Positions 1 through 29,288 of a stretch of DNA of 32,211 nt are shown piece by piece (the stretch's first letter is position 1; the number at the start of each line of letters is the position of its first letter). The DNA is from a virus, in the IMG/VR virus record IMGVR_UViG_3300024344_002357, positions 1 to 32,211 of that record. One strand, 5' to 3'. The position numbers and the translations under genes were made by a program. Below the pieces are notes generated by a model, which was not told where the DNA came from, searched no databases, and was given only the letters and a program-made list of their open reading frames with translations.

Positions 1-409
1 TTCTCTTGTATCTATCTCTTGGGCTATTTTCATTGTAGAAGTTTGCACCTCTTTTAATTCCATCAACACCTATAGAAAAATATCTCTCATCCACATTTCT
101 ATTTCTGTCATCACTTAGAATTCCGCAATCAAGCATCATTCTTTGACGACCAAGTTCTATCATTTTATTTTTTATAGCAACTCTCATATAGCCTTCTTCA
201 GCCATTCCATTCGGATCTGAATGAAAGCATAACGACTCATATCTTGTCACTTCAGCTATTTGAAAAGAAACGTCGCATCTTTCAAGCTTATGCAAGTCAC
301 GTTTTGACTTTATTACCTCAACATGATCTCCAGAATCGAGAACTCCTTGAGTAAAAGATTCCATTATCTGATCTGTTCTTCTCTTTGTGTAACATATAGC
401 TACTTTCAT
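1..409 (-). CDS. Unknown protein of the glycan cluster (N-terminal part, runs off left edge)
   Basis: An open frame of 136 codons starts at an ATG at 409 and is still open at base 1, so only the N-terminal part is present. It begins MKVAICYTKRR, the short hydrophobic strand typical of several neighbouring glycosyltransferases, and contains the stretch SIGVDGIKRGANF near the visible end. The start overlaps the stop of the upstream gene by one base (TAATG), so translation is probably coupled. I do not recognise the family. Its position as the most distal visible gene of a dense glycosyltransferase cluster makes a role in glycan assembly or surface modification likely, but that is inference from context only. 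Confidence 0.7.
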   Translation of the reverse strand, partial: MKVAICYTKRRTDQIMESFTQGVLDSGDHVEVIKSKRDLHKLERCDVSFQIAEVTRYESLCFHSDPNGMAEEGYMRVAIKNKMIELGRQRMMLDCGILSDDRNRNVDERYFSIGVDGIKRGANFYNENSPRDRYKR

Positions 410-2437: not shown

Positions 2438-3099
2438 CCGTATTTCTTACCCCTAAGAAGCATAGGAAAATCAATTCTATTAACTGGCACATTATTACAA
2501 TCTAAGTGATATCTTAGTATGTATTCTGGATGTATCATTATGCCGTTTTTAGCGTAATGTTCTATATTGTTATATACAGAGTTGTATACTTTCATGTCTT
2601 CTACAGAACCAAACGCAAATGAGTCTTGATACCCATCCCTTCCATCAAGACCCTTTGGAATAACCAAACTTGTGTATGACATTTCTAGCTCTTCGTTTGT
2701 TACTGGTCTTTCGTATTCTATTTCTGTTCTACATCTAAACACAACATCATAGTTTTCATTGTTTATCTGCTGATAACATTGCATATTTGTATAAAACATG
2801 CACATCATTCTTTCGGCGCTGGTCTCTGGAGCTTTTGTACGGAAGGAAAAGTTTTTGTCTTTTAGAAACTCATCACAGCTTTCAAGGATGAAAGACTTTG
2901 GTCTGTACAATTCTAAGAATTCTTCTACAGTGCCGTTCTCAGAGAACCTCTTGGTTACATCATTTTCGTTCCGCTTTTCAAAATCCCAACCATAGACAAA
3001 AAGATCTGCGTTTGTAGGGTCTATTATGTTTTTAAAAAGGGAGTCTCGGCTTCTAACAAAGCTTCTTAGTTGTCCAGAAAGACAGACCGCAACTTTCAT
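2434..3099 (-). CDS. Putative glycosyltransferase-like protein (CLSGQLR family)
   Basis: A 221-residue protein beginning MKVAVCLSGQLRSF. This N-terminal signature is shared by a family of viral and bacterial proteins annotated as putative glycosyltransferases or of unknown function. Further family-like features are DLFVYGWDFE, the acidic DVVFRCRTEIEY segment (a possible metal or nucleotide site) and HPEYILRYHL near the C-terminus. No membrane segment is visible. It lies between a GT25-type gene and the HAD/nucleotidyltransferase fusion with 4-base overlaps on both sides, which supports a function in the same pathway. Catalytic activity is not demonstrated by any unambiguous motif, so the call rests on N-terminal resemblance plus context. 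Confidence 0.6.
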   Translation of the reverse strand: MKVAVCLSGQLRSFVRSRDSLFKNIIDPTNADLFVYGWDFEKRNENDVTKRFSENGTVEEFLELYRPKSFILESCDEFLKDKNFSFRTKAPETSAERMMCMFYTNMQCYQQINNENYDVVFRCRTEIEYERPVTNEELEMSYTSLVIPKGLDGRDGYQDSFAFGSVEDMKVYNSVYNNIEHYAKNGIMIHPEYILRYHLDCNNVPVNRIDFPMLLRGKKYG

Positions 3100-3818
3100 A
3101 ACTTATTTCTTTCAATCCTGTTTTGTTCACAATTACTGAACAAACCTTTATCGTGTATGATTTTGGGCATAACATAGCAGGTATTCATTTCTTGATGTAT
3201 CCCTGAGTTTAGTTGTGAGTCTATTGGATTTTCAGGGTCAAGCTCTATGAGTTTGTCTAAGATAGTTTTATTAATAATAACGCCGTGCATTCCGCCGCAA
3301 GTGAAGTGTGCTTCTGACACAGTTCCCAATGCCACCCCTCCATTCTCATTGTACATTCTTTCAACTGTCTTATTCCAAGGATCGTCAGCCTCTCCTATCC
3401 ACCAACCAAGAAAAAACATATCAAAAATAAAAGGTCTTTTGTTGTTCTCTTCGTACTGATGTGCTATTTGTTCCACCTTAGACATTACATCATCAAATCT
3501 TTCTGTAAAATAAGCATCGTCTTCAAGAAGTAAAAAACGATTTAGCCCCTGCTCTTTTGCTCTTTTGAATATTTCAATATGTGACATGAAAGCGTTGTAG
3601 TGTCTGATTTTAGTGGTGTCATTTCCATAACTCCAATCAGAAAGATCTGCGTCTTCAACGTCTATTCTGTCGTACATATCTGGGTCTAGTGTTTTACCAT
3701 CACCAACAATGAATTTTTCAAACTCAATACCCTTTGACTCGCACTGTCTTTGCAGGTCTTCCCATTCGTCTTTTCGTTTGTCTAGACATAGACATATAGC
3801 TTTTTCTATTCCGAGCAT
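3096..3818 (-). CDS. Glycosyltransferase family 25-like (LPS/procollagen type)
   Basis: A 240-residue protein resembling GT25 enzymes, which transfer galactose or glucose to LPS cores or proteins. The N-terminus GIEKAICLCLDKR matches the family opening (hydrophobic strand then a conserved Arg), and FLLLEDDAYF around residue 100 is the characteristic ED-D acidic motif. HAFMSHIEIF-type spacing upstream (NAFMSHIEIFKRA) matches the conserved helix with its S-H pair. A GG-x-H motif follows at about residue 178. Length is near that of the catalytic domain alone. It overlaps its upstream neighbour by 13 bases. Family assignment is good; substrate is unknown. Confidence 0.78.
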   Translation of the reverse strand: MLGIEKAICLCLDKRKDEWEDLQRQCESKGIEFEKFIVGDGKTLDPDMYDRIDVEDADLSDWSYGNDTTKIRHYNAFMSHIEIFKRAKEQGLNRFLLLEDDAYFTERFDDVMSKVEQIAHQYEENNKRPFIFDMFFLGWWIGEADDPWNKTVERMYNENGGVALGTVSEAHFTCGGMHGVIINKTILDKLIELDPENPIDSQLNSGIHQEMNTCYVMPKIIHDKGLFSNCEQNRIERNKL

Positions 3819-4861
3819 TTCTTCATTTCTTCTAAAAGATATTTTGCCATAGATTCTGTAGTTAAGTATTTTTCTGTATACTCTCTAAACTCTCTTAGTA
3901 GATTTTCATATTCTATATTGTTGAAATTTGCATAGTCTATATAACCTCTGGCTGAACCATCTTGTATAGCTTTAGATGTTCCTATAAACGTGTCTTCTTC
4001 TGGATCAAAAGGTTTTTTTGTTCCGGGCATGACTCCAGACATCTTTTTTGCTTTTATGCAAAGGTCTTTAGGAAATCTAAACATGCTTTTTGGAGGGCAT
4101 TTTTCTATGTCTGTAAAGTAAGGAACAGAACCGGCTGCTAATATTTCATAATGTCGCATACAATCCCAAGACTCCTCAAGAACATGCTCCCTGCCTTTCT
4201 TGCACGTATAAGCAAAGTAGCTTTCTTCGTACATATCATAGTAGTCTTTTTCATTATCATAAATGTAAGACTTCATATGCGGATCGTCAAAGTGACCATA
4301 CGCTGGAACTAGCGAAGCAAAATCAATCTCTTTTCTCTTACCGCCTAAAGGTCGCAGTTTTTCTTTAGGTATAGAAAACGATATGGACTTTGCTTGACTT
4401 GTTTCTTTGTTTATCTCTCTTTTGAAGAACGGAACTAAAGACATTAAAGAAGTGTCAGTGTAAGGTCTGTCCCATCCATCTATCAGGCAAACTTTGTTAG
4501 CCGGATAAAATTCAAGAACCTTTTTTATAATATCCTTTGCCGTCTTCCAGTCTTGAACCATAGTGTGGTGCATAGGGCAGATGATATAGTCGAAATATCT
4601 GCTTTGTATCTTGCCGCCAATGTCATCCCTGTCAATCTTTATGTTTGGCAATAAACCATAAGTAGTAAAACCTTTGCCCCACAAGTGAGACAAAGATTCT
4701 GGATGAGCGTCATTGTAGACATGCCACATCCTGTAGCCGTCTATGAGATCTTCACCTAACAAAGACCTGAGACCATGAAAGAGAGTGTCTGTCAGATAGT
4801 CTCCAGCCTGTCTTGACGAAATGGCTTGCTGTTGTATTAGTGGGTAGTAGAGTACTTTCAT
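3806..4861 (-). CDS. Putative glycosyltransferase (GT-B-like, exostosin-like C-terminal region)
   Basis: A 351-residue protein. The N-terminus MKVLYYPLIQQQ is a beta strand typical of a Rossmann half. The most telling part is near residues 230-250: SWDCMRHYEILAAGSVPYFTD, where an E followed by AAG-x-VP-x-F/Y is the donor-binding signature of GT-B enzymes of the GT1/GT4/GT47 type. A central stretch, FDYIICPMHH and VCLIDGWDRPY, alternates strand and helix as in the N-terminal acceptor domain. It sits between an SDR epimerase and a GT25-like gene with short overlaps on both sides. The glycosyltransferase call is likely, but the family is uncertain. Confidence 0.65.
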   Translation of the reverse strand: MKVLYYPLIQQQAISSRQAGDYLTDTLFHGLRSLLGEDLIDGYRMWHVYNDAHPESLSHLWGKGFTTYGLLPNIKIDRDDIGGKIQSRYFDYIICPMHHTMVQDWKTAKDIIKKVLEFYPANKVCLIDGWDRPYTDTSLMSLVPFFKREINKETSQAKSISFSIPKEKLRPLGGKRKEIDFASLVPAYGHFDDPHMKSYIYDNEKDYYDMYEESYFAYTCKKGREHVLEESWDCMRHYEILAAGSVPYFTDIEKCPPKSMFRFPKDLCIKAKKMSGVMPGTKKPFDPEEDTFIGTSKAIQDGSARGYIDYANFNNIEYENLLREFREYTEKYLTTESMAKYLLEEMKKCSE

Positions 4862-5808
4862 TTGCTTCTCTTTACTACATCAAAGATGACATCTTTTGAT
4901 TTAGGAAACTTAGGATTCCAACCCGCAGATTTTAACAATGTGTTACTAGCTCTAATAATTCTATTATCGCCTTTCCAGTTTGCTTCTTCTCCAAGCCACT
5001 TGATAGGCTTTTGTATTTCTAGAGCGGACATTGCTGCTTCCGCAACTTCCTCAACTGTAATTGAATCATCAGGAACTACGTTAAATACCTTGCCTTTTGT
5101 ATCTTGTGTACCAAGAAGTATCAGCGCTTCTACCACATCGTCTATATGACAGAAAGGTTTGGTAGATCCGGGATAAGAACCTAAAGCTTCTAGATTTGGG
5201 TTGTCGCTTTTTATTTTTCTTATAAAGTCTTTTATGATTCCATGAGTCAATCCGGAACCTACGGTCGCGCATAATCTAGCAGAAACCCCATCTATTTTGC
5301 CTGAAGATGTATATGACTCAATTATGCTCTCAGAAGCCCTTTTGGTCATTCCATAAATTGAAGTTGGCTTGCAGGTAGAGGATTCTTTGTATTCTCTGTC
5401 AGGGCTTGGTGAATTAAAAATCCAATCACCATAAACTATAACAGAAGAAGCTAAAACAACTCTACATCCTTCAGGTGCGTAATGAGCTACTTTCTGCGTG
5501 CTTATAGTATTATCTAAGATGATACCGTGAGGATTTTCGTCGTCTGGTTTTACTACAGCATTGCTTGCTAAGTGATATATTAAATCAGGTTTGTGCTGTT
5601 TGCATATGTTCTCAAAAATGTAGTAGCTGTCTTTTGACCTGTCTACTTCGCCAAGGTCTAACGCATAGTGATCGCTAAGTTTAACGTCTCTGTTGGTTAT
5701 CATTATTGGACGGCGGGATACTGTAATCAGTTTATGTCCAAGAAGTTTTAATTGTAAACAAAGATGCTTTCCTATAAATCCGGTCGATCCAGTTACAAGT
5801 ATTTTCAT
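4858..5808 (-). CDS. NAD(P)-dependent sugar epimerase/dehydratase (extended SDR)
   Basis: A 316-residue extended short-chain dehydrogenase of the nucleotide-sugar epimerase/dehydratase type. The N-terminus ILVTGSTGFIGKHL contains the GxxGxxG dinucleotide-binding motif (residues 7-13). LIYHLASNAVV is the conserved H-L-A strand end, a catalytic Ser lies in LASSVIVYGD, and Y-x-x-x-K is present in SIYGMTKRASE. The C-terminal half has FCHIDDVVEALI, the usual substrate-domain motif. The length matches the family. It would remodel the sugar of an activated nucleotide-sugar for the adjacent transferases. Start and stop overlap the neighbours by four bases. The exact reaction (4-epimerase, 4,6-dehydratase or reductase) cannot be decided. 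Confidence 0.9.
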   Translation of the reverse strand: MKILVTGSTGFIGKHLCLQLKLLGHKLITVSRRPIMITNRDVKLSDHYALDLGEVDRSKDSYYIFENICKQHKPDLIYHLASNAVVKPDDENPHGIILDNTISTQKVAHYAPEGCRVVLASSVIVYGDWIFNSPSPDREYKESSTCKPTSIYGMTKRASESIIESYTSSGKIDGVSARLCATVGSGLTHGIIKDFIRKIKSDNPNLEALGSYPGSTKPFCHIDDVVEALILLGTQDTKGKVFNVVPDDSITVEEVAEAAMSALEIQKPIKWLGEEANWKGDNRIIRASNTLLKSAGWNPKFPKSKDVIFDVVKRSK

Positions 5809-6851
5809 TTTTCCACCATGCTATCTACGAACATTAAACATTTTTCCGCTTCTTTAGGCATGTCTAGTTCGGTAAACAGCCTAGCGATTCTGTGAAAATA
5901 AGTGTGGTTTTGTAGAACGCAATTAAAACCTTTTTCTGCGTACAATGCTGCTTCTTTGGGATGATTGACGTAGTATTGAATTAATTGTTCAAACTCTTCT
6001 GGCGTTTTTGCAAACAAAACTTCGTCGTTTGTAAATACGTCGTTCGCCATTGATTCGACGTAGTCTGAAATACAAAAACCGCCACTCATCAATACCTTGA
6101 ACGGTCTCTCGATTATATCATATCCAAAGTCTTGCGAATGAGGCTCGCTGACATTTGGGCAGACGATGGCAGATCTAAAAGCGTGTTTTACATTTTCGTT
6201 AGAAATTTTTCCAGCATACTGAACTACAGGCCAGTCAGATCCTCCAAAGATTTTTATATTGAACTTGCCGACAGGATGGCATAGCCTAAGAAGATATGGA
6301 TCTAATCTTTCTGCTTTGTAAGGCCAATAGCCACCTACAAACACTATGTCAGATTTTAGAAGATCCACTTCACCAGCGTTTGCATAGTCGAACACGTCTG
6401 CGCCATGCATCATTGAGACAACTTTTACACCTATTACCTCCCACCTATTGTGTGTGACCTTCATCCAATTATCGTGGTAATGATTGTGAACGAAGTCAGG
6501 CTTGTCGCATTCTCTCTTAAGTCTTTCTATCCATATAGACTCATCTTTCGTAGCCGTCAGGATAGGATATTTTTCTTTATCCACCTCTTTTTGCATATCG
6601 CCCCAGTCAGAAGCTCGCATTACAACCTTCATTTCTGGACGCTCTTTTATGCAGTTAAAGAGAGATCTATTCATGTTGTAAGTTTGCCCCATAAATATGT
6701 CGGGTTTAAACTCGTCAAATGCGTCATATGCAGACTTTGTATTTGTGTCCCATAAAATTACTTCGTGACCTATAGCTTGAAAAACTTTAGCCCATCCCAT
6801 TCTTATATAGTAGTGCGCATGAGGACCGTCACTAGAAATCATAACTTTCAT
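5805..6851 (-). CDS. Glycosyltransferase, GT-B, GT4-like with Glyco_trans_1_2-type C-terminus
   Basis: A 348-residue GT-B protein. MKVMISSDGPHAHYY and KPDIFMGQTYN belong to the N-terminal Rossmann half. The C-terminal half has IVFVGGYWPYK (inter-domain strand) and a donor-binding region around residues 238-262, ending in ERPFKVLMSGGFCISDY, in which the E and the following S-G-G-F replace the more usual A-C-G-x-P. The closing segment, with EFEQLIQYYVNHPKEAALYAEKG, is the usual C-terminal helix of this subfamily. No membrane anchor is seen. It is coupled by ATGA overlaps to both the upstream nucleotidyltransferase and the downstream SDR gene. Confidence 0.8.
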   Translation of the reverse strand: MKVMISSDGPHAHYYIRMGWAKVFQAIGHEVILWDTNTKSAYDAFDEFKPDIFMGQTYNMNRSLFNCIKERPEMKVVMRASDWGDMQKEVDKEKYPILTATKDESIWIERLKRECDKPDFVHNHYHDNWMKVTHNRWEVIGVKVVSMMHGADVFDYANAGEVDLLKSDIVFVGGYWPYKAERLDPYLLRLCHPVGKFNIKIFGGSDWPVVQYAGKISNENVKHAFRSAIVCPNVSEPHSQDFGYDIIERPFKVLMSGGFCISDYVESMANDVFTNDEVLFAKTPEEFEQLIQYYVNHPKEAALYAEKGFNCVLQNHTYFHRIARLFTELDMPKEAEKCLMFVDSMVEK

Positions 6852-7567
6852 TTTTGCAAGTCCTTAAGAGAGTCAATTTCTTTTATTTGCATTCGAGGAG
6901 GTTCAACAGATCTAAAGAAGCCTCCAGAGTTTATTATTATATTAAAAAGCTCAAATGGATACATTTTGTTTTTTGTTTTGTCTTGACATAAGTCGTTAAA
7001 CATTTCAAACTCAAAACCTTCCAAGTATGCCATATGCGCCCATTTAGATTCTAATCCATAGGCAAAATTTGTAACTTCTCCATCCACTATGGTTACACCT
7101 ATCTCTTCTTCGTCAAATCTAGATTGACTATCGACAACAATAGAAGATCCTTTTTTTGTTATGTCATTTAGCGAACTTACGTTAAATATAAGATCTCCAT
7201 ATATTATCAGTGCGTTATTATGAACTGAGTTATTTATTCCGAGCCTAAGACTTTCTACTATATTGGACGTTCTATAAGATTGATTTTCTACAATTCTTAT
7301 GTCTCTATCTAGCGTTTTTATAACCCTGTCGGATTCAAATCCTACTACGACTATTATCTCAGAAAATGGGTAAGTCTTTTTTACAGTTAATATTATTTTA
7401 TCTAGTATGGTATGTCTTTGATTTACTGGCAGCAAGCATTTAGGGCCATAGGATTTCATTCTATGACCCATACCGGCTACTGGTACAATAACGCTTAGAG
7501 GTTTGTCAGCGTCTTTACCAGACCCGTTGTGCTTCGTTGAGCTTGTAAAACGGTTATATTTACGCAT
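6848..7567 (-). CDS. Nucleotidyltransferase (phosphocholine/sugar-phosphate cytidylyltransferase-like)
   Basis: A 239-residue GT-A-fold nucleotidyltransferase. Residues around 24-45 carry the signature LSVIVPVAGMGHRM plus a conserved Lys in PKCLLPVNQ, then DKII in place of the usual L-x-x-x-I. SYRTSNIVESLRLG has the TSN-x-x-SL motif and IIYGDLIFNV the catalytic D, as in LicC-type phosphocholine cytidylyltransferases and related Campylobacter-type enzymes. The first 23 residues are basic and unlike the catalytic domain. It would make a CDP- or other NDP-activated group for transfer. This is the second nucleotidyltransferase of the cluster and is not a close copy of the one fused to the HAD domain, so the two probably activate different substrates. 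Confidence 0.82.
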   Translation of the reverse strand: MRKYNRFTSSTKHNGSGKDADKPLSVIVPVAGMGHRMKSYGPKCLLPVNQRHTILDKIILTVKKTYPFSEIIVVVGFESDRVIKTLDRDIRIVENQSYRTSNIVESLRLGINNSVHNNALIIYGDLIFNVSSLNDITKKGSSIVVDSQSRFDEEEIGVTIVDGEVTNFAYGLESKWAHMAYLEGFEFEMFNDLCQDKTKNKMYPFELFNIIINSGGFFRSVEPPRMQIKEIDSLKDLQK

Positions 7568-8348
7568 TTGCCCTGTTTTGTAATTTTTCCATTACTCTAG
7601 ACCAGTTTTGTTGCCAGACATTTTGATTTACTACAAAGCTAGAGTTGTCACCTGTCACCCTAACGAGAGTTAAAGATTCTGCTACATGGGCTATGATGTA
7701 TTTTTCGCTTATCCTCATCCAGAGGTCATAATCTTCGCATGTTCTCATAGTAGAATCGTAGTAACCAGTAGTTTCTTCAACGTCTAACAATGCTTGTTTA
7801 TTTATAATGCTGCCGCTATGAACCATGCATTCTTCTATTAACCTTCTTCTAGTATAAGGCTCTTTAAATTCTCTGATTATTTTTCCTGTAGAAGTATGCT
7901 TAGTGTCATAGTCAGCATAAACAACTCCAATAGACTTCATGTCCTGTTTCATTACATTGACACATTTTGTTATCTTTTCAGGATACATTTCATCATCAGC
8001 ATCTAAAACTGCATAGATGTCTGTGTCCGGTAGTGTATAGTTGATGCCGGTATTTCTAGCAGCGCTAGGGCCTCCGTTTGTCCTATTTATAGCGACAAAT
8101 TTTCTATCGGAAAAATCATCACTAGGCCAAGTTATAAAAACTTCCGAACCTTCAAATGTATCGCTAGCAACATTCTTTTCAGAAGAAGTTATTATGTCCC
8201 AAGATTTATCTGTAGAGCCATCATTAACGACGCAAATTGTAATAGGCCCTTCATAGTCTTGATGCATAGCGCTATTTATGGCTTTAGCTATATACTCTTC
8301 GTCGTTATAACAAGCTATAAGAATTGTAACTCTAGGATTCTTTTCCAT
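7560..8348 (-). CDS. Glycosyltransferase family 2
   Basis: A 262-residue GT2 enzyme with a complete set of motifs. RVTILIACYNDEEYI is the N-terminal strand, VVNDGSTDKS the first Asp-containing nucleotide-binding loop, NGGPSAARNTGI the conserved N-x-G-x-x-x-A-R-N segment, and YAVLDADDEM the DxD metal site (about residues 114-118). The C-terminal CEDYDLWMRIS carries the ED-Y-DLW acceptor/catalytic motif. No transmembrane helix is present, so it is a soluble transferase. It overlaps the upstream gene by 17 bases and the nucleotidyltransferase downstream by 8. Family assignment is secure; sugar specificity is not visible. Confidence 0.92.
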   Translation of the reverse strand: MEKNPRVTILIACYNDEEYIAKAINSAMHQDYEGPITICVVNDGSTDKSWDIITSSEKNVASDTFEGSEVFITWPSDDFSDRKFVAINRTNGGPSAARNTGINYTLPDTDIYAVLDADDEMYPEKITKCVNVMKQDMKSIGVVYADYDTKHTSTGKIIREFKEPYTRRRLIEECMVHSGSIINKQALLDVEETTGYYDSTMRTCEDYDLWMRISEKYIIAHVAESLTLVRVTGDNSSFVVNQNVWQQNWSRVMEKLQNRANA

Positions 8349-9129
8349 TTCTAATTTCTTCCCAAGTCCAAACTACACTTTTAGTGCTTCCGTCCTCACT
8401 CTGTATGCCTTCTATTTTTTCAAGAAGTGTCATTCCGTAGTATCCATTCAAAAACTTATGCATGGTAGCCTGAACAACAGTTCCATTTAGATTTTCATCG
8501 CCTTTGATATAGACAACAGGTTCAAGCTCTGTATTCGTTTGCTTATCAATTAAAGAAATTACATCTTTTGCAGGCTTGTTTCCAGCTTTCAAAATATAGT
8601 AGTAGCTATTGTTAATGTTAGAAAAACACAGATCTATGGATTGATACTGATATGTCTCTTTTTCCATAATCCTAGTTACTTTGTAATCTATTTCAGAATC
8701 TCCAAACAAATCTTGAACTGTAGAAATGAATTCTATAGGATCTGATTCTGAGCTATTGGCTATAGTGACATAGGAAGCCTCGCCTTCTATTTCCTTAATG
8801 CCAGAAATAGTTTTTTCTAAATCTTCAGTAGAGGAGTCATTGTCGAACAAAACTATGAAACCTACGGGAAAGACGGCTTCTTCTTTTACTTTGTCTGTTA
8901 GACTAACGCTTGTGTCAAACGCCTCTTTCCATTCCTGATTTCTGTAATAATTACACCAAGCTTCAACCACAAAGAACTCATTTTCTTCTAAGTCCTCTGC
9001 TTCAATGATGTCAACTCCCTTTTCTCTGAACTTTTCTACTCTACCTAACTTACACTCTGTTTGTGTTTTGCCAATATAAACAGCAAAAACACAATCTTTG
9101 CAGGAGCTAGTTAACTGATTGTCCATCAT
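8332..9129 (-). CDS. Unknown protein with N-terminal cysteine cluster
   Basis: A 265-residue protein of unknown function. The N-terminus holds C10-x-x-C13 and C27 in the context CKDCVFA and TQTECKLGR, a pattern that could bind zinc or an iron-sulfur cluster, with a further Cys in AWCNYYR (about residue 58). The middle (PVGFIVLFDND, then strand/helix alternation) resembles the start of a degenerate GT-A nucleotide-binding fold without a clear DxD. It overlaps the GT2 gene by 17 bases and the methyltransferase-like gene by 4. Context suggests it partners the GT2 enzyme, possibly as an accessory or inactive transferase. Two consecutive ATGs are possible starts. Confidence 0.6.
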   Translation of the reverse strand: MMDNQLTSSCKDCVFAVYIGKTQTECKLGRVEKFREKGVDIIEAEDLEENEFFVVEAWCNYYRNQEWKEAFDTSVSLTDKVKEEAVFPVGFIVLFDNDSSTEDLEKTISGIKEIEGEASYVTIANSSESDPIEFISTVQDLFGDSEIDYKVTRIMEKETYQYQSIDLCFSNINNSYYYILKAGNKPAKDVISLIDKQTNTELEPVVYIKGDENLNGTVVQATMHKFLNGYYGMTLLEKIEGIQSEDGSTKSVVWTWEEIRNGKES

Positions 9130-9635
9130 GGTCTTTCTCCTTCTACTAACATGTTAACGCCTTGTAATCTTTTTTTTGTAACTTTGATACCTTGCGACTC
9201 TAAGAAAGAAACAAGATCTTCCATAGTCGTGTGACTTAGTTTAACGCTCCAAACCTCCTCAAAATTTCCATGCATAAGGACATTGAGAGAATCTGTGTCT
9301 ATAGCTTTTTTATAAAACATTCTACATACTTCTAGAATGTCTGTTCCGCCGACGACTATCTTGCCGCCATGTCTAAGCTTACTAATCCAGTGAGCTAAAA
9401 CTTTTCTAGACTCTCCAAGCTGTAGATAGTCTAGTATGTCTTCTGCTACAATTTCTACGCATTCGTTTTCTAGGGTTATTTCATCTAAATTACGAATGTC
9501 TGCCTTTATGACATTTGTTTGTCCTTCATTGGCATTTTCCAGAACTACTTCTTCACCCATTCTTTTGAGCGTTGGGTCTACGTTCACGTAGCCAGATTTG
9601 TAGCCAGACCCGCCTAGTGTTATGTTAATCTTCAT
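9126..9635 (-). CDS. SAM-dependent methyltransferase-like protein (small, degenerate)
   Basis: A 169-residue protein with the outline of a class I methyltransferase. LGGSGYKSGYVNVDP resembles the first loop and the acidic end of strand 2 (the usual GxG is not canonical). IKADIRNLDEI matches the D-x-R motif before strand 4, and a long HWISKLRHGGKIVVGG segment is the classic helix plus G-G strand 5. The C-terminal part is short. It probably methylates a sugar or is a non-catalytic relative. It is placed between a GT4 gene (gap of one base) and the cysteine-containing unknown. Class membership is likely; catalytic competence is uncertain because of the altered SAM loop. Confidence 0.65.
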   Translation of the reverse strand: MKINITLGGSGYKSGYVNVDPTLKRMGEEVVLENANEGQTNVIKADIRNLDEITLENECVEIVAEDILDYLQLGESRKVLAHWISKLRHGGKIVVGGTDILEVCRMFYKKAIDTDSLNVLMHGNFEEVWSVKLSHTTMEDLVSFLESQGIKVTKKRLQGVNMLVEGERP

Positions 9636-9636
9636 C

Positions 9637-10653
9637 TTATCCCCTAAAAAACTTTTTAGCAGTTTGTTTAAGTAAAAAGTCCCACTTCCTAATAAACTCT
9701 TCTTGTGAAAAGTTTTCGACTATGGTTTTTCTTGCGTTTTCGCCTAGCTTTTTAGCAAGCTCTTCGTCATTCAAGAGGTCAACTAAGTATTGCTTTAGCT
9801 CTTCTTCGTCATTACTTATAAAACCGTTAACGCCATTTTCTACAATCTCCGGTATCATACATGTCGCTGTCGTAACAACAGCGCAACCACAAGACATGGC
9901 TTCCAGCAAGGCTGTTGGTACGGGAGATATTGTAGAAGTGTTTAGAAAAATTCTATTGGAAGAGTATGCGTTTACTAATTCTTCTGTGCTGGATGCTGGG
10001 ACTGACAGGCCGGGAGTATCTCCAACAACCTTAAATGGTAAGCCCTGAATAACTCTTTGCCATAAAGTGAACCCGCAACACCAATCTCTATTAATCCAGT
10101 CATTAACAACGGATAGTATTTGGTTTTCTCTCTCTACTTCCTGCGGCTTAAAAGTCTGCGAGTCTACTCCGTGCGTTATTACTGCTGTGTCATTCCCCTG
10201 CGGACTCCAGTCCCAGTCGTGTATGCTGTATTCTGATATAAATATATTTGTATCGCCTCTCATGTATTTTGTAGACTCTTTTACATTTGGAGGCCAGTAA
10301 GGAACTGGCAATGTATGCTCTAAACTAACCATCGGTAAGTGCAGTCTTTTTGATAAAGGTTCTGCGATTTGAAATTGACCGAACTTGTTTTGAGAGAGAA
10401 TAAGATCAAAATCTACATTCAGTGGTATTTGTGACTCGCCAAGATCTGGGTCTAGCAGTTGGTAGTTCTCTGGTAGAGGAGCGTAGTTAGAGTTCCAGTC
10501 TTTTACGCCTTCGGCTCTGTAGGCATAAAAATTATGGCCTGTCCTGCACAAAAGACTTTCATATCTTTCGTGTGTGGGGAAGGTCAGTATATTTAGCGGC
10601 TCATTAAATTTTCTGGTCGCTGCTCTTGTTATAGATGCTACTGGATTACTCAT
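9637..10653 (-). CDS. Glycosyltransferase family 4 (GT-B)
   Basis: A 338-residue retaining-type GT4 enzyme. The N-terminal half contains FDLILSQNKFGQFQIA and PMVSLEHTLP, the acceptor-side strands of a GT-B fold. The C-terminal half has NRIFLNTSTISPVPTALLEAMSCGCAVV, whose E-A-M-x-C-G-C-A-V core is the donor-binding signature, then IPEIVENGVNGFI, the conserved loop that contacts the nucleotide. A basic C-terminus (KKFFRG) follows a long helix. It overlaps the upstream GT4 gene by 8 bases. Soluble, cytoplasmic; substrate unknown. Confidence 0.9.
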   Translation of the reverse strand: MSNPVASITRAATRKFNEPLNILTFPTHERYESLLCRTGHNFYAYRAEGVKDWNSNYAPLPENYQLLDPDLGESQIPLNVDFDLILSQNKFGQFQIAEPLSKRLHLPMVSLEHTLPVPYWPPNVKESTKYMRGDTNIFISEYSIHDWDWSPQGNDTAVITHGVDSQTFKPQEVERENQILSVVNDWINRDWCCGFTLWQRVIQGLPFKVVGDTPGLSVPASSTEELVNAYSSNRIFLNTSTISPVPTALLEAMSCGCAVVTTATCMIPEIVENGVNGFISNDEEELKQYLVDLLNDEELAKKLGENARKTIVENFSQEEFIRKWDFLLKQTAKKFFRG

Positions 10654-11800
10654 TCAAAAGCTCTTTTATTAATTTGCCTATATTTTCGTGAGAATATTTC
10701 TGCGCTTGAACAAGTCCGTTTCTTTTCATCTTGCTGTATTCTTCTTGTTCTGAGCTTTTCATAGTGTATATTTTTCTCATTGCTCTTCTAAGCTGATTTA
10801 CATCTACAGAATACCAATCCTCTTCGCCTGTAAAAAGATCGGCAAAGGTGTCTGTCATTCCAGAAACTGGTTCCCATCTGCCGTCAATCAAAATTCCAGA
10901 GTCGCCCTGCGGGTCTGGTTTTCCCCCAGAATATCTAATATAATCTGCCATTCCTCCAGTATTTGAACATATCGGCGTTTTACCAAAGCCCATAGCGTCA
11001 AAAGCTGGTATAGACCAAGCCTCTCCGTAGCTAGGCATAACGAAGCAGTCACAAGCCCTGTGAAGACCATAAAGCTCTTGTTCGCCTAAATAATCTGTAA
11101 CTATTAAGTCTTCTCTATAGTCTTCTAGATTTGCGTACTTTTTAAGAGATGTCTTAATTTTATCGCATACATTTTTTATCTCTGCCGCGCACTCGTCGGA
11201 AGACATACCATACCTGTTTGATTTTATTAAAATCGAGACGGGTTCGTCTGGGTCAAACTCTAGATGAAACGCTCTTATAAAAGCCGCCATGTTCTTTCTG
11301 TTGTTCATCTCGCCAACAAAGTAGAAAGTAAAGGTGTCTCTTATGTTTGGTATATCAACTTTTCTATGATTGCTTTCAAACTTAGAAAAATCTGTGGCAT
11401 GAGGAACAACCTTTATTGGTATGTTTACCCCGCTTTCTTTTGCGGCGTTCACCATTTGGTTGTTTATAACCCAAGCCTCATCTAAACAGTTTATTTTTCT
11501 AGCCCAGTTAGATGCCTTAAAATTGCTTGTCTCGCTTGCGTATAGGGCTATATTTTTCTTAAATCTAGCATTGTAATCCATCATGTGTGGAAGTACGTGC
11601 TGTATGCAAACATCACTGCCGATACTATCTTTTTTCTCAAGCTCAATTATTCTTTTAGGTATGTCTGGTTTGTTGTTATTTAATTTTATTGGCCTTGGAA
11701 CAACGTCTATTCCAGCAGCGTCCATAGAAAGTATGTAATCTATTGCGGCTTGCGCCCATCCAGTACCATCTCTGTAGCAACCTATATAGAGGACTTTCAT
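10646..11800 (-). CDS. Glycosyltransferase family 4 carrying an inserted RYSGGKPDPQ segment
   Basis: A 384-residue GT4 enzyme. MKVLYIGCYRDGTGWA is the glycine-rich N-terminal loop; TFYFVGEMNNRKNM is the inter-domain strand with the Arg-Lys donor site; DCFVMPSYGEAWSIPAFDAMGFG and CSNTGGMADYI are the C-terminal donor motifs. Between MADYI and GDSGILIDG, where relatives normally continue directly into the G-x-L-V loop, lies a segment (residues 288-298, IRYSGGKPDPQ) encoded by DNA nearly identical to a stretch of the polymerase C-half gene. This lies next to the donor-binding cleft, so it may lengthen a loop there. ATG start with a 4-base overlap to the upstream gene. Confidence 0.88.
   Translation of the reverse strand: MKVLYIGCYRDGTGWAQAAIDYILSMDAAGIDVVPRPIKLNNNKPDIPKRIIELEKKDSIGSDVCIQHVLPHMMDYNARFKKNIALYASETSNFKASNWARKINCLDEAWVINNQMVNAAKESGVNIPIKVVPHATDFSKFESNHRKVDIPNIRDTFTFYFVGEMNNRKNMAAFIRAFHLEFDPDEPVSILIKSNRYGMSSDECAAEIKNVCDKIKTSLKKYANLEDYREDLIVTDYLGEQELYGLHRACDCFVMPSYGEAWSIPAFDAMGFGKTPICSNTGGMADYIRYSGGKPDPQGDSGILIDGRWEPVSGMTDTFADLFTGEEDWYSVDVNQLRRAMRKIYTMKSSEQEEYSKMKRNGLVQAQKYSHENIGKLIKELLNE
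10907..10942 (-). repeat. 36-bp dispersed in-frame segment, copy A (in glycosyltransferase)
   Basis: On the minus strand this encodes Y-I-RYSGGKPDPQ. It matches copy B at 15319-15354 at 33 of 36 positions, in the same reading frame; two of the three differences are synonymous (GGG/GGC, AAA/AAG) and one changes Ile to Leu. Flanking bases diverge at once on both sides. The core can form a hairpin: TCTGG and CCAGA pair around a 7-base loop. In this host gene the segment looks like an extra stretch relative to the usual GT4 layout. Confidence 0.85.
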
Positions 11801-13434
11801 CTAACCACCTCTTTCCTTTTTGATTCCCAGAAATTTCTTCTCTCTGCAAGATCAGCGACAACCTTGTATGCAATTTCTTTGTCAAACGGTTGATACTCTG
11901 GACGAACAAACTTATAAGAGTCCTCATTAAAGTACATCTCTCCAGTGCCTTCTATGTACATCCCATAATTTAGATCTCTAATCATTCTTGCTTCAAAGTA
12001 AGTGTTAAGTCTTTCAGGCTCTCCTAAAACATTGACTATCAGCCATTGAGCATACTCTTGTGTAGGAAGGTAAGCAGGAACATCTATATCTGGGTGGTGT
12101 ATTCTGGGTGGTGACAGCCAAGTTTCTTGATCGGGTCTAATTTCTAAAGAATCAAAATACTGCTCCCATTTCTTAGCGGTTGAATCCCATTGGTAGTATT
12201 TATCAAAGTTCGCCTTGCAAAGCTTTCCTAAAAATTGACGATCTTTATCTGACATGTCGAAGAACTTTTTCATCTCCTCCGCAGTCTTGTCGTTGTCAGG
12301 TACTGCCCTGTCACAGCCAGTTTCCATTTCGTTGTAAAGAGCTTTTGGCTTTAATGGTATTCCTCCCAATTTTCTAACAACACTACTCATGGCAGAGTAA
12401 TCAATGCTCATGACAGGCACTCCACAAGCGGCTGCTTCAACCTGTGGCAAACCGAAACCTTCACTGTTTGCATACTGAACGTATAGGTCAAACGTATTCA
12501 TGATAGAAGCAAGGAATTCATAGCTCGTTCCATTCTTTACGCTTGATAAGCCAGCTCCAGAACCACCGCATCTTGGGCATTTTGTTTTTGCGTCAGCAAA
12601 AAACGATGGGAAAGCATGACCACAACTTGGGCATACATATGTGAAGATAACCTTGCTTGACAGTGCGTGTTTATTTAGTAGTTTAGGTATGTCCCATCCA
12701 ATGTCTGGATAGCTAGTGTGACAGTATAGAAAAACATCACTACTACCACTCTTGTCTAAAAACTTTCTAAAAGCTTCAAACAAGTCAGGAAATAACTTCC
12801 TTCTTTGATTGCGCATTACAGTGCCAATTATTTTACTGTCTGGGTCAAACCCTAATTCGGATTTGTGCTTTCTTTTGCTTGCTACTGGCTGGTAGGCTTG
12901 ATCGGCAGAAGGAGGAGCGCTACCCAAACAATTAATAGCGCCGTTAGACTCTTCTTTTAGAACCTCATATCCCCAATCAGAATAATTAAAAACGCCGTCA
13001 GCTTCAGAAAATGTAGCCAGCCATTGTTCGTTTTGTGGGGAAGCATCTACGGTAGGCATTATAACCCAATGGAACATCCTTCTGAATGGCGACCTGCTTT
13101 GATAGTCAAGCATCCAAAAGTCTCGAATATCAAAAACAATATCAGGCTTAAAGCTAAGTAATACTTCTTCAAATCTCCACTCTCCAAATTGGTTTGTAGG
13201 GATGGAGTTGTACTGATCTACTTCAGCTTTGTTAGAAGTGTCAGGCATGTTTGGATAAAAAGTCCACGGAATATTGTTCTTTGCGGCCTCTTCTGGAGTT
13301 CCATAACTAGCAAATTCTGCCAATTCGTACTTATCTGTCTGATAAAGTCTGTTTAAAACTTCTCTGCCATAGGTTGCATAGCCTGTATTTAGATAGGTAG
13401 CCTCTCCGCAAAATAATATTCTTTTCTTTCTCAT
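11797..13434 (-). CDS. Glycosyltransferase family 4 with an internal zinc ribbon
   Basis: A 545-residue GT4-type protein. The start is placed at ATG 13434, which overlaps the sigma-factor stop (TGATG); the codon before it is TTG. Features: RILFCGEATYLNTGYATYG (glycine-rich donor-side N-terminus), KPDIVFDIRDFW, KIIGTVMRNQRRKLF (inter-domain strand plus basic donor site) and YVQYANSEGFGLPQVEAAACGVPVM, the E-x-x-x-C-G-x-P donor motif. Between these is an inserted four-cysteine ribbon, C268-P-S-C271 and C286-P-R-C289, followed by a glycine-rich turn. A C-terminal extension of about 120 residues is unassigned. It is the first gene of the glycan cluster after the sigma gene. Confidence 0.88.
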   Translation of the reverse strand: MRKKRILFCGEATYLNTGYATYGREVLNRLYQTDKYELAEFASYGTPEEAAKNNIPWTFYPNMPDTSNKAEVDQYNSIPTNQFGEWRFEEVLLSFKPDIVFDIRDFWMLDYQSRSPFRRMFHWVIMPTVDASPQNEQWLATFSEADGVFNYSDWGYEVLKEESNGAINCLGSAPPSADQAYQPVASKRKHKSELGFDPDSKIIGTVMRNQRRKLFPDLFEAFRKFLDKSGSSDVFLYCHTSYPDIGWDIPKLLNKHALSSKVIFTYVCPSCGHAFPSFFADAKTKCPRCGGSGAGLSSVKNGTSYEFLASIMNTFDLYVQYANSEGFGLPQVEAAACGVPVMSIDYSAMSSVVRKLGGIPLKPKALYNEMETGCDRAVPDNDKTAEEMKKFFDMSDKDRQFLGKLCKANFDKYYQWDSTAKKWEQYFDSLEIRPDQETWLSPPRIHHPDIDVPAYLPTQEYAQWLIVNVLGEPERLNTYFEARMIRDLNYGMYIEGTGEMYFNEDSYKFVRPEYQPFDKEIAYKVVADLAERRNFWESKRKEVVR

Positions 13435-13931
13435 CAATTAGCTTCCCTAATTTTTTCAAAGAGTGTTTCTAATTTTTTATTCAAAACAACTCTGGTGCAA
13501 TTTAGAAAATCGCAAATCTCTGCGTTGGTATAATTTTCAAGTTTTAACTTGAGTATAAAGTTCTCTTCTTCTGATAGATAATCCGGCACATAATCAAAGA
13601 AGCTTTCTTTTATATAGTACTTATCTTTTAGACTTTTTGCTAAAAGATTGTTATCAAAGAATACTTTAACATCTTTATCTTTATTTTTGCTTTTTAATTT
13701 TTGTATCTCATTTCTAATACATACAGTAGCATAAGTAGAAAACTTAGCTATGTTTTCATCATGTTGTCTTATAGCTCTAAGCAGACCTATCAGTCCAGCC
13801 TGTATAAATTCGTCTAAGCTAGAGTTTCTAGATAAAAAAGAAAGAGCTTGACTAACAACCAGTCCGTAATTATTACGAATCAGTTGGTCTTCAAGCTCTT
13901 TGTCCGTTGTGCTTCTTTCTTCTTTATTCAT
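13434..13931 (-). CDS. RNA polymerase sigma factor (small sigma70-family, regions 2 and 4)
   Basis: A 165-residue sigma70-family protein. Region 2 spans about residues 15-78: LIRNNYGLVVSQA (2.1), DEFIQAGLIGLLRAI (2.2, core-binding) and FSTYATVCIRNEI (2.3-2.4, promoter melting and -10 recognition). A degenerate region 4 helix-turn-helix covers the C-terminus (YTNAEICDFLNCTRVVLNKKL). Region 1 and a full region 3 are missing, as in many phage-encoded sigma factors. It should redirect host RNA polymerase to a class of phage promoters, most likely middle or late genes. It overlaps SSB by 8 bases and the first glycan gene by one, so all are on one transcript, probably driven by the promoter at 14378-14406. 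Confidence 0.9.
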   Translation of the reverse strand: MNKEERSTTDKELEDQLIRNNYGLVVSQALSFLSRNSSLDEFIQAGLIGLLRAIRQHDENIAKFSTYATVCIRNEIQKLKSKNKDKDVKVFFDNNLLAKSLKDKYYIKESFFDYVPDYLSEEENFILKLKLENYTNAEICDFLNCTRVVLNKKLETLFEKIREAN

Positions 13932-14406: not shown

Positions 14407-15978
14407 CTACAGTTCAAATATTTCGTCTACTATAACTCCGTCTCTTTTACCCTTGGATGATTTTCCTATTATAAGTACATTGTTTCCATTATATAGAACA
14501 TTTTTGTATTTAATCCAAGCTTCATTAAAAAGAGTTATATTATCAACGCTACCAGTAGCATCTTCTATTTCTAAAAACCCCATTTCATTGCCAGCGGCCT
14601 TACCCTTTTTTGGTGTGTACCTTCTCGTTTCAGAAACTGTTGCGGCAATCATAACCTTGCCCTCTTTACCATTAATGAGATCTTTACAAGTGGTATCAGC
14701 CCTGCTAGTATCTGATGACTCTACTTTGGAGAAAGTCAGTGACACGCCGTAATAATTTTCTTCCGTTCTAACTATCCATTCTGGATCGTCGTGTAGAGAG
14801 ACTGGAGGATCTTCTAGCTGCTGTATCAAATCTTTTACTATCTCCAGCCTATTCTTGTTTGTAACCCCACCACCCTCTTTTCTCGGCTTGCCTAGACTTC
14901 TAAGAAGTTCTAGTAATGAGTCAAAGGCTTGATAATTTTCTAAAGCCCATTCTATTTCTTTGTTGGATAACTTTTCAAACGTGTCGAATTCATAAAGCAT
15001 CTTTTGTCTTGAAACTTTAAGGTTGGACAAAACTCCAGAGGATATTAAAGCTCTGGTTGCCGTTTTATTTATCTTCCTAGAAATGAGGACTAAAAATTCA
15101 TACCAAGTCCACTCCTGTGATTTTAAAGATTCCTTTAGATCAGAAATACTATCTCTTATTGTTGTTATTGTGTTAGACCCTAGAGACTTGACGTTTTTGA
15201 GTCCAAAGTAGATTGTATCGTTTATTACGTCAGTCTCTTCGTTCAAATAATCTAAGGACGGAGGATGTATGAATATATCGTTGGACTTAGCGTCCGTGAC
15301 AAGCTCCTTGACTTCTTTCTGCGGGTCTGGCTTTCCGCCAGAATATCTAAGATAGTTACAGTAGAACTGTAGCGGATAATGCGTTTTAGCGTATGCGCTC
15401 CAATATCCACAAATAGCATAGCTAACAGCGTGAGATTTATTAAAAGCGTAACGACTAGACTTTTCAATCCAGCTAAAAATTTCCTCTGCTGTTTCTTCGT
15501 CCACAGTCCCTTGCTTAATAGCCCCTGACATAAAAGACTTTTTAACTTTAGCCATCAGATCCGCCTTCTTTTTGCCGATGGCTTTACGGAGGTCGTCAGC
15601 GTCCTCAAGGCTAAATCCAGCTAACTGTTGAGCTATCTGCATTGACTGCTCTTGATAAACGAGTACACCCTGAGTCTTCTTTAGGATTGGCTCTAATGAT
15701 TGGTGCAAATATGTTATTGACTCTTCGCCACTCTTCCTATCGACGTAATGTTGAGTCATAGACTTTCCATCAACTATAGCTTTTAGACATCCCGGACGGA
15801 TGATGGCTATTAAGTCGGAAAGTTCTTCCATATTTTTGGGCTTAACTTTTTTAGCCCAACTTCTTCCTAAACTACTCTCTAACTGAAAAACACCCTTCGT
15901 TCTTCCGCTACAGATTGTGTCCCATGTAGAGTCGTCGTCAAAAGATAAATTTATAGGATCAAAGGTGGATGTTTCCAT
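14407..15978 (-). CDS. dnaE: DNA polymerase III alpha subunit, C-terminal half (split gene)
   Basis: A 523-residue protein that starts exactly where the other half stops in the family alignment. Residues 29-35, GVFQLES, are the first palm/fingers motif after the third catalytic Asp; IAIIRPGCLKAIV, GVLVYQEQSMQIAQQLAGFSLEDADDLRKAIGKKK and FNKSHAVSYAICGYWSAY are conserved finger motifs. The C-terminal 90 residues are the OB domain (GFLEIEDATGSVDNITLF). No catalytic Asp of the active-site triad is on this half, so it must assemble with the N-half. The ATG at 15978 is preferred over an in-frame TTG at 15996 because AAAAGG precedes it at good spacing. It overlaps dnaQ by 20 bases. No tau-binding domain is seen after the OB fold. 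Confidence 0.93.
   Translation of the reverse strand: METSTFDPINLSFDDDSTWDTICSGRTKGVFQLESSLGRSWAKKVKPKNMEELSDLIAIIRPGCLKAIVDGKSMTQHYVDRKSGEESITYLHQSLEPILKKTQGVLVYQEQSMQIAQQLAGFSLEDADDLRKAIGKKKADLMAKVKKSFMSGAIKQGTVDEETAEEIFSWIEKSSRYAFNKSHAVSYAICGYWSAYAKTHYPLQFYCNYLRYSGGKPDPQKEVKELVTDAKSNDIFIHPPSLDYLNEETDVINDTIYFGLKNVKSLGSNTITTIRDSISDLKESLKSQEWTWYEFLVLISRKINKTATRALISSGVLSNLKVSRQKMLYEFDTFEKLSNKEIEWALENYQAFDSLLELLRSLGKPRKEGGGVTNKNRLEIVKDLIQQLEDPPVSLHDDPEWIVRTEENYYGVSLTFSKVESSDTSRADTTCKDLINGKEGKVMIAATVSETRRYTPKKGKAAGNEMGFLEIEDATGSVDNITLFNEAWIKYKNVLYNGNNVLIIGKSSKGKRDGVIVDEIFEL
15319..15354 (-). repeat. 36-bp dispersed in-frame segment, copy B (in polymerase C-half)
   Basis: Minus strand encodes Y-L-RYSGGKPDPQ (residues 209-220 of the C-half). 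Sequence matches copy A at 10907-10942 at 33 of 36 bases. Here the hairpin is perfect: TCTGGC and GCCAGA enclose a 5-base loop. The segment follows HYPLQFYCN, where E. coli DnaE has only about three fewer residues before its next conserved block, so this copy could be native to the polymerase and the other one derived, or both could be insertions. Confidence 0.85.
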
Positions 15979-16642
15979 CTGCAAATGCCTTTTCAAATTT
16001 TACGCTAGGAGAAACTCTTCTGATAAGCTTCATGAAAGCAATCAACAAATTGGCAGTATCTTTTACGTCCTGTAGTGCGTCATGAGCATTTTCTTTGTCC
16101 ATACCAAGCAGGTCTCTCATTGAATCCATGCTCAAGGATTTAACATCTGAGTTATTCTCCATCCACATCCACACCGTATGCATCAAGTCAACTTTGTGAA
16201 TAGGATTAAACAAGCCCTGTCTACCTGACTTGTTGTGCGTAGGGCCATATTGTTGGCACATACGTTCAACGATAGGCATGTCAAAACCAATTATGTTGTA
16301 ACCAGCGGCGATAGGAGCGTAGTAGTTTGTTTTTTTGAAGTTGTACTTATTGACAAAGTTTGTGAACTTTTGCCAAACCGCTTTTGGCTGCGGTGCTTTT
16401 GCTAAATCTTCTCTATTCTTTCTAGTGACGGCGAGAGCTTCGTCCTCTACTGGATCTAAACCTAGCTCAATAGCCTTATCGTCATCTAAAATAGGCCGTA
16501 TTTCACTATTAAAATAACCTCCGGGCTGCACAGTGAGCTTGCGCCCATGAATAGCAACTGCGGCAATTTGTGTTGGCTGACACTTATACGGGTTTCTACC
16601 GCCCGTTTCAAAGTCGAACACAATGATATCTCTATAATTCAT
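15959..16642 (-). CDS. dnaQ: DnaQ-like DEDDh 3'-5' exonuclease (proofreading)
   Basis: A 227-residue DEDDh exonuclease. ExoI is IIVFDFETGG with D10 and E12, ExoII is AAGYNIIGFDMPIVE with its Asp, and ExoIII is NAHDALQDVKDTANLL with the His and Asp. This fits the epsilon-type proofreader of a C-family polymerase. No clear clamp-binding QxxLF is seen. The gene lies between the two polymerase halves, overlapping the 83-residue protein by 4 bases and the C-half by 20, so proofreader and both halves should be made in similar amounts. The C-terminal tail after the exonuclease fold is only about 15 residues, so a polymerase-binding domain like that of E. coli epsilon is not evident. Confidence 0.92.
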   Translation of the reverse strand: MNYRDIIVFDFETGGRNPYKCQPTQIAAVAIHGRKLTVQPGGYFNSEIRPILDDDKAIELGLDPVEDEALAVTRKNREDLAKAPQPKAVWQKFTNFVNKYNFKKTNYYAPIAAGYNIIGFDMPIVERMCQQYGPTHNKSGRQGLFNPIHKVDLMHTVWMWMENNSDVKSLSMDSMRDLLGMDKENAHDALQDVKDTANLLIAFMKLIRRVSPSVKFEKAFADGNIHL

Positions 16643-16891: not shown

Positions 16892-18799
16892 TTAAGATTC
16901 TTCCAGTTGGTCTCTAATACCCATCACTTTATCTAAAAGTGAAATACCTAAAACGTCAAATTTGACATGACCCATAGCCTCAAGATCGTTCATTTCCATA
17001 CCAGCCATTTTTTCTGAGCTAGATTTGTCTCTAACCATAGGGCATACCTCGTTCAAATTATTGGAGGAAATTACAACTCCAGCTGCGTGTTTACCCTGAG
17101 ACTTAAATGTACCTTCGATGCGCATGGCTTGTTCAAACAGTTTTGCATAATCGCCTTCTAATTCGCCCTCGTCATTCATTCTGCAATACTCTCTTAGGAC
17201 TTCCGGCTGATTTATCAAAGTCCATCGTATTACTGACGGGTCGTCCATATCCGCTAATTGATCAGATATTTCATGTTCGGGTGGTAGGCTTTTTGTTATG
17301 ACGTTCATTTCGTCATAGCCGCAAGCCTCATTCATGCGTAGAACTTCTTTGAGTGCGCTTCGCCCTTGAAGTCTCCCAAATGTAACCATTTGACTTACTT
17401 TTGAATGTCCATACTTATCTCTTATGTAGTTTATGGTATCGTCTCTTCTAGATGCCGGTACGTCTATATCAATATCTGGAAGTGATATGTGATCTTCTGT
17501 ATTTCTTCCGGCGTTATAAAATCTTTCAAAGATTAATCCATACTCAATGGGATCAACTTGTGTTATGCCCACCAAATAAGAAACCAAACATCCAGCAGCA
17601 GAACCTCTTCCGGGTCCGGGAATCCAAGAGTTTGATCTAATGTTGTTAACTATATCTCTTACTATCAGAAAGTATCCAGACAGGTTTGCATCACTTATGA
17701 CTTTAAGTTCTTTTTTTATTCTGTCGGCATATATATCTTCAGATGTTTTTGTGTTTATCTTACCACTTGGCATGAGGAAATTTTTCCATCCCTCTCTGCA
17801 TAAATGTTTTAGGTAAGCCTCTTCCGCCATGTCTTCTGGGCATTTAAACTTAGGCAACATTGGCTGACCAAGAATGTCATAGCTTTCACACATGTCGGCC
17901 ACATGCATGGTATTCTGCAATTCAGCTTCTGTATGTATTGCCTTCATCTCTTGTAAAGTTGGGATGTGGAAGTTGTTAGACTTCATAAACCCAGAGAAGC
18001 CAACGTCCTCATTGTTATCTAACTTGCTTTTTATCTTTCTAAGAGTTGTTTTCATCGCAGAACACAAAAGTAGTAGGTGGTCTGGTGAATCCTTCTTTTC
18101 TGGATAGTGTGAGTCTGAGGTCGCTATCGAGGGTATCTTTAATGTTTTAGCGATATAGCGCATCCCTTGCGCTACAAGCTTTGCTGCTGGAGAGTTATCT
18201 TGGTCTATACACTGCACTTCGATTAGAAAGTTTTCTTTACCAAATATATCCATATATTTGTATGCGACTTTTGTGACTTTCTCAACCCAGCTTGGGTCTA
18301 TATACTTCTTAACTCCAGCCTCTGTTTCTTGACCATACGCAGCTTTATAGTCTGTAAAAATCGCGTTAGCCATGTCGCTGCCTAAATGCCCACTAAAAGC
18401 CAAAAGGTCTCCGTTAGCATATTGACCGAGCAAATCTAAGTCTAATCGCGGCTTGTAATAATAAACATCTTCATCGTTACTGCGAGATACAGCCTCGATC
18501 AATTTTCCCCAGCCAGTCTTGTTCTTTGCCAGCACTACAAGATGACTCAGGGTTCTGTTTGATGTTTCTTTTACCGTTGCGTCGTCTTGACTGAGATAGA
18601 ACTCACAGCCTAACACAGGTTTGATATTTTTTGCTTTACAAGCCTTAGTGAAAGAGACAGCTCCAGACACGGTTCCGTGATCTGTCAGTGCGCAAGAGCT
18701 AAATCCCAAGTCTGCACACCTGCTTGCGATCTGTTGCGGCCTAGACAGACCATCAAGTAGGCTGTAGTGACTGTGTAAATGTAATGGAGTCCAATTCAT
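16892..18799 (-). CDS. dnaE: DNA polymerase III alpha subunit, N-terminal half (PHP + catalytic palm)
   Basis: A 635-residue protein. Residues 1 to about 250 are the PHP domain: LHLHSHYSLLDGL, CALTDHGTVSG and IATSDSHYPEKK hold most of the usual metal ligands. The palm follows, with GPGRGSAAGCLVSYLVGIT and LPDIDIDV, whose D442 and D444 match E. coli D401 and D403. GRLQGRSALKEVLRM and KSQGKHAAGVVIS are conserved. The third catalytic Asp is D615 in KFDVLGI. The protein ends 20 residues later at a normal stop, with no intein-like sequence. It carries the complete catalytic triad but lacks fingers and OB fold. ATGA overlap with the RecB-like nuclease gene upstream. Confidence 0.95.
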   Translation of the reverse strand: MNWTPLHLHSHYSLLDGLSRPQQIASRCADLGFSSCALTDHGTVSGAVSFTKACKAKNIKPVLGCEFYLSQDDATVKETSNRTLSHLVVLAKNKTGWGKLIEAVSRSNDEDVYYYKPRLDLDLLGQYANGDLLAFSGHLGSDMANAIFTDYKAAYGQETEAGVKKYIDPSWVEKVTKVAYKYMDIFGKENFLIEVQCIDQDNSPAAKLVAQGMRYIAKTLKIPSIATSDSHYPEKKDSPDHLLLLCSAMKTTLRKIKSKLDNNEDVGFSGFMKSNNFHIPTLQEMKAIHTEAELQNTMHVADMCESYDILGQPMLPKFKCPEDMAEEAYLKHLCREGWKNFLMPSGKINTKTSEDIYADRIKKELKVISDANLSGYFLIVRDIVNNIRSNSWIPGPGRGSAAGCLVSYLVGITQVDPIEYGLIFERFYNAGRNTEDHISLPDIDIDVPASRRDDTINYIRDKYGHSKVSQMVTFGRLQGRSALKEVLRMNEACGYDEMNVITKSLPPEHEISDQLADMDDPSVIRWTLINQPEVLREYCRMNDEGELEGDYAKLFEQAMRIEGTFKSQGKHAAGVVISSNNLNEVCPMVRDKSSSEKMAGMEMNDLEAMGHVKFDVLGISLLDKVMGIRDQLEES

Positions 18800-29280: not shown

Positions 29281-29288
29281 TTTTAGTC

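Follow-up and report, generated by a model that had tools for sequence, protein, structure and literature searches.

Probable ectopic insertion of a 30-bp polymerase gene fragment into a viral glycosyltransferase gene

How can two unrelated genes come to share almost the same short stretch of DNA in the same reading frame? This question is raised by the genome fragment of an uncultured virus, one record from a collection of viral contigs (IMGVR_UViG_3300024344_002357), which we analysed over its entire 32,211 bases (hereafter the window). A segment of the glycosyltransferase gene (10907-10942) and one of the polymerase gene (15319-15354), located 4.4 kb apart on the same strand, were found to be identical at 33 of 36 bases, in the same codon phase and with sharp ends, which confirmed the near-identical in-frame pair reported in a preliminary description of this DNA. 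The longest exact run between the two copies comprised 13 bases. A search of the whole record allowing mismatches, suggested in the same description, was run on both strands and returned no place with at least 23 of 36 matches other than these two. Against the 33 matches observed, 30 randomized copies of the window from a first-order Markov model reached 23 to 27 of 36 positions in their best 36-base self-match, this comparison being restricted to pairs with an exact 12-base seed in common.

Table 1. Coordinates of the shared segment, its parts and the two genes that carry it.
Feature	Position in window	Strand	Basis
Glycosyltransferase gene, recipient of the insert, 384 aa	10646..11800	-	ORF list; Pfam Glycos_transf_1 5.3e-14; fold match
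Insertion proper, 30 bp, codons 289-298, RYSGGKPDPQ	10907..10936	-	Absent from L003 and 77/77 other glycosyltransferase rows
TATATT, codons Y-I native to the glycosyltransferase gene; forms the left junction, imperfect microhomology to TATCTT of the putative donor	10937..10942	-	Sister/donor comparison
DnaE-type DNA polymerase III alpha, C-half, 529 aa; gene family of the putative donor segment	14407..15996	-	Pfam DNA_pol3_finger 6.9e-48; PDB relatives 2hpi, 5fku
Polymerase copy, window allele GGC/AAG; 28/30 identical to the insert	15319..15354	-	Sequence comparison; ungapped in 98/99 polymerase rows

The recipient gene encodes an enzyme that we take to be of the GT4 type. Its predicted fold resembles known glycosyltransferases, the best PDB match by E-value being 3oy2, a glycosyltransferase of a chlorella virus. 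Positions 1-13437 of the window form a long run of sugar-related genes adjoining replication genes, with several glycosyltransferases and nucleotidyltransferase- and epimerase-like ORFs, most of which were named by eye from their translations. The polymerase III alpha is split in two genes, a PHP and palm half (16892-18799) and the fingers and C-terminal half listed in Table 1, and between them lie an 83-aa ORF and an RNase_T-type exonuclease gene (15959-16642). Judged by eye against the alignment, the break apparently falls in a linker ahead of the finger region, and no intein was seen by eye at the split. Among the literature matches listed for a split phage polymerase III, nothing was on point by title.

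To place the segment in both gene families, related loci were taken from viral_contigs, 41 for the glycosyltransferase and 60 for the polymerase; since rows in the alignments are loci, some contigs stand in two of them. The site was readable in 40 of the 41 glycosyltransferase loci, with L035 ending before it. Altogether 79 glycosyltransferase rows were alignable at the segment, two of which represent the window (W and its copy L001), and the segment-level reading was confined to these rows, the 119 records of the phage collection that carry distant glycosyltransferases (all below 60% identity) being set aside. RYSGGKPDPQ occurred in none of the 77 other rows; at its columns the number of other residues ranged from 0 to 7, the loop being variable in length. 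This empty site in all 77 rows rules out that the segment is an ordinary part of the glycosyltransferase family carried by its homologs in general, the finding that the preliminary description had named as fatal to its reading. The insert is also absent from the nearest relative, L003 (the same contig as L044), with 97% protein identity and about 94% nucleotide identity across the window. The L003 glycosyltransferase has 374 codons and differs from that of the window by the ten-codon insert and by 31 synonymous and 3 nonsynonymous changes. Furthermore, a search with the codons just before the site matched four contigs, three of them already among the relatives, and all four read through without the insert. 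The extent first given for the shared segment, 36 bp, had to be corrected: its last six bases by coordinate (TATATT) are native to the glycosyltransferase gene and only the remaining 30 constitute the insert, so that the third of the three differences between the copies falls outside it.

The polymerase family gave the opposite picture. Except for L034, every one of the 99 polymerase rows covered the segment ungapped, with GKPDPQ present in 33 and SGGKPDPQ in 13; here 1,238 phage-collection records with distant polymerases (all below 60%) were set aside. As the insert is absent in 77 of 77 rows of one family and the segment ungapped in 98 of 99 of the other, the alignments indicate that the segment is old in the polymerase and was inserted recently in the glycosyltransferase.

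The polymerase of the window itself matched the insert at 28 of 30 bases, whereas that of L049, a contig of 5,494 bases, 5,493 of which align to the window at 98.25% identity, matched it at 30 of 30. At the two diagnostic sites the window polymerase agrees with L003 (GGC, AAG), while L049 has exactly the GGG and AAA of the insert. Of the 99 polymerase rows, 75 were compared at the diagnostic glycine codon, and L049 was the only one of these with GGG. The two synonymous differences between the copies, taken beforehand as a hint that the peptide had been kept, are thus allelic and no sign of selection on the peptide. The L049 contig ends before the glycosyltransferase gene. Of the 96 sites at which window and L049 differ, the window agrees with L003 at 50, L049 agrees with L003 at 42, and neither does so at 4. 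In addition, no difference between the window and L003 was found in the 500 bases of 18001-18500, a probable tract of recent recombination, compared to 10-50 differences in most other 500-base bins. This mosaic sharing of alleles and the difference-free tract fit recombination among relatives.

Two further length differences were noted in these comparisons. Between the dUTPase-like and ribonucleotide reductase genes, the window has 46 bases (29244-29289) where L003 has about 180, an unaligned replacement. In L100, the polymerase match extends over 1,944 bases (8001-9944) as opposed to about 1,590 in nearer relatives, hinting that this polymerase gene bears an insertion, possibly an intein or intron.

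The junctions were read by comparison with the sister L003 and the donor candidate L049. On the left side, in gene sense and with a slash at the joint, the window reads GATTATATT/AGATATT, the donor candidate AACTATCTT/AGATATT and the sister GATTATATA/GGTGAC. The microhomology at this junction is TATMTT, in which only two bases are contiguous (TT), and a single one if the ancestral sequence was ATA, as in the sister. The right junction, CCGCAG/GGCGAC, has nothing in common with the continuation AAAGAA of the donor candidate and hence shows no microhomology. The 30-nt gap fits equally at two adjacent places, each with 5 mismatches in 80 nt, and one base beside the insert is possibly donor-derived, which would make the event a 31-for-1 replacement. 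When the window without the 30 nt was aligned to the empty site, no target-site duplication was detected. CRISPR-spacer-like integration, considered for the 30-bp length, was dropped, as nothing appears to be duplicated at the site. The likeness of TATATT and TATCTT may account for the same frame of both copies, and the junction pattern is as would be expected of template switching or of illegitimate recombination with a short strand.

The same junctions bear on whether the insert is real at all, since a chimeric join during sequencing, amplification or assembly might have placed a scrap of polymerase sequence in the contig. Amplification chimeras do arise at short homology, and this general behaviour lends the possibility some weight. 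The window is moreover a single record, and a second record carrying the insert was not found in viral_contigs, a collection from which records very near to that of the window may be omitted. However, two junctions 30 nt apart, one of them almost without homology, seem unlike an ordinary k-mer overlap, the insert has the alleles of another strain rather than those of the contig itself at both diagnostic sites, and its length and phase leave the reading frame open. We therefore regard an artefact as unlikely.

A small, mobile palindromic element with in-frame insertion, of the kind of the Rickettsia palindromic elements (RPEs), would be expected to have dispersed copies. Apart from the known pair, the only repeat returned by a dispersed-repeat scan of 108 records (1,611,996 bases, redundant; 11-base seeds, ungapped, at least 26 bp and at least 88% identity) was a local palindrome, which appeared in two overlapping loci of the same contig. 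This near-perfect palindrome of 30 bp, AGGCTTGGGGGG..CCCCCCAAGCCT, is located at 5972-6001 of L014 (also 10513-10542 of L068) and is perhaps a terminator. Comparison of related records in 790 ordered pairs yielded 18 distinct insert strings of at least 15 bp, some of which are alternative alignments of one event, and only for the polymerase-derived insert does the same record contain another copy. Against all records, this insert was again the only one (listed twice, for W and L001) with a non-orthologous match longer than 16 nt, the others reaching 12-16 nt. A codon-level pattern for YSGGKPDPQ matched six contigs in viral_contigs, in all six within polymerase genes, and a 36-mer pattern matched only the L049 polymerase in 7 related records. 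In genome_contigs, the one exact-match pattern applied gave 0 matches. Three matches of the looser pattern GGKPDPQG fell in stop-to-stop frames of 29, 144 and 110 residues and were taken for chance.

Folding as DNA gave the polymerase copy of the window a 6-bp stem with a 5-nt loop, present only in this allele, while the insert and the L049 allele adopt a different and weaker fold. All three sequences fold slightly better than their shuffled versions (z -2.1 to -2.7), and a palindrome common to them was not found. Together with the insertion in frame, the stem of the window allele and these scores are what can be said in favour of a mobile element. Opposed to it are the number of copies in the window, two, one of which is an old part of a conserved protein, and the restriction of all matches outside the window to polymerase genes, with L049 as sole match among the 7 related records, two viral_contigs patterns matching polymerases only and genome_contigs giving none to the exact-match pattern. 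Moreover, the stem is not kept in the putative donor allele and the insert, and a target-site duplication, as left by transposase-moved elements, is lacking. RPEs are about 150 bp long; PMC10969869 names ten families of them and counts 44 insertions in R. conorii. The present insert resembles the elements outlined there as short in-frame DNA within protein-coding genes, but it is a single insertion of 30 bp with a known, non-mobile source. Multiple dispersed copies and a conserved palindrome, as in RPE- or MITE-like elements, are not seen here; what was searched contained one insertion and polymerase copies, with the stem confined to the polymerase allele of the window. Judged by these searches and folds, a mobile palindromic element, proposed in the preliminary description, is extremely improbable.

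To assess the consequences for the glycosyltransferase, AlphaFold2 models with and without the insert were compared. Their secondary structure was closely similar, with a mean pLDDT of 92.2 and 94.3, respectively. Within the block 291-300 the pLDDT falls to 55, and to below 50 at 291-294, whereas the model of the sister protein contains no ten-residue block below 88. The insert comes after the helix that follows the GG loop, between this helix and a strand, where homolog lengths vary by a few residues. The usual Rossmann topology would put it on the side away from the donor-sugar site. The models suggest that the ten extra residues are probably tolerated in the loop, likely because the frame is kept and the extended loop is already length-variable between homologs, and the enzyme presumably still works.

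An alternative is that the polymerase decapeptide was recruited as a useful loop or as a binding motif shared by the two proteins. This would agree with an in-frame insert free of stops at a place of variable length between helix and strand, and with the strong purifying selection on the rest of the gene that is evident from the few nonsynonymous changes relative to the sister. Nevertheless, the synonymous differences are accounted for by the donor allele, the peptide pattern in viral_contigs pointed to polymerase genes in every case, and the loop is predicted at very low confidence. By our reckoning, any insertion would have the same strand and frame by chance in about one case in six. A selected peptide tag, likewise proposed at the outset, is consequently unsupported and in our view very unlikely, although the loop may have become useful later.

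From these comparisons we consider it highly probable that a single, recent, templated ectopic insertion took place, with a polymerase allele of the L049 type as its source and no mobile element involved. A 30-nt piece of such an allele would have been copied or joined into the glycosyltransferase gene, in an ancestor or in a co-infecting relative, through template switching or illegitimate recombination where homology is very short, with TATMTT on the left and none on the right. Since the polymerase of the window is not an exact match, either a donor in trans or a later allele replacement is required. The ancestor may have had an L049-type polymerase that was later replaced through recombination, or the scrap may have been donated in trans by a co-infecting relative. 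The lack of microhomology at the right junction and the one or two contiguous bases at the left one may count against a templated insertion. Among the explanations offered beforehand, the one that a fragment of the polymerase gene was copied has good support from the empty site in the sister of about 94% identity, from the 30/30 match of L049 and from the greater age of the polymerase copy, and it is the one that stood, while the mobile palindromic element and the peptide tag did not.

The proposed event can be compared with SPDIR, reportedly described in bacteria by Harms et al. in PNAS in 2016 and also mentioned in PMC7192050. SPDIR is characterized by microhomology at both joints, replacement of recipient bases by the donor segment and RecA-independent joining of short single strands. 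In contrast to SPDIR, the event considered here concerns a virus, is a net 30-bp insertion rather than a plain replacement, and is known from sequence alone. With respect to the joints, only the left one has microhomology (TATMTT, with one or two contiguous bases) and the right one none; with respect to replacement, the 30-nt gap can be set at either of two adjacent places, and a 31-for-1 exchange is possible. The likeness lies in a short intragenomic or extragenomic segment set at an unrelated site with little homology. Templated insertions of the MMBIR type, arising through microhomology-mediated template switching, were reported in human cells (PMC8421209), and they share with the present case a short insert, an identifiable distant template and microhomology at one end. 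They differ from it in their setting, human cells as opposed to a virus.

The proposed insertion would represent a known kind of mutation in a traceable example. In a bolder version of it, a co-infecting sister phage supplied a few dozen nucleotides of its polymerase gene in trans, and the loop of ten residues gained in this way alters the choice of sugar acceptor. This version appears decidedly unlikely to us; if true, ectopic copying of tiny gene scraps between co-infecting phages would be a source of protein novelty. Short insertions in proteins are often without a traceable source. In the present case the sequence is available for the putative donor allele as well as for the empty site and the insert, and this natural example shows cleanly how part of one gene can enter another in frame. 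Altogether, this locus illustrates that a single mutation can account for a striking repeat in two unrelated genes, for which neither a mobile element nor a tag is necessary.
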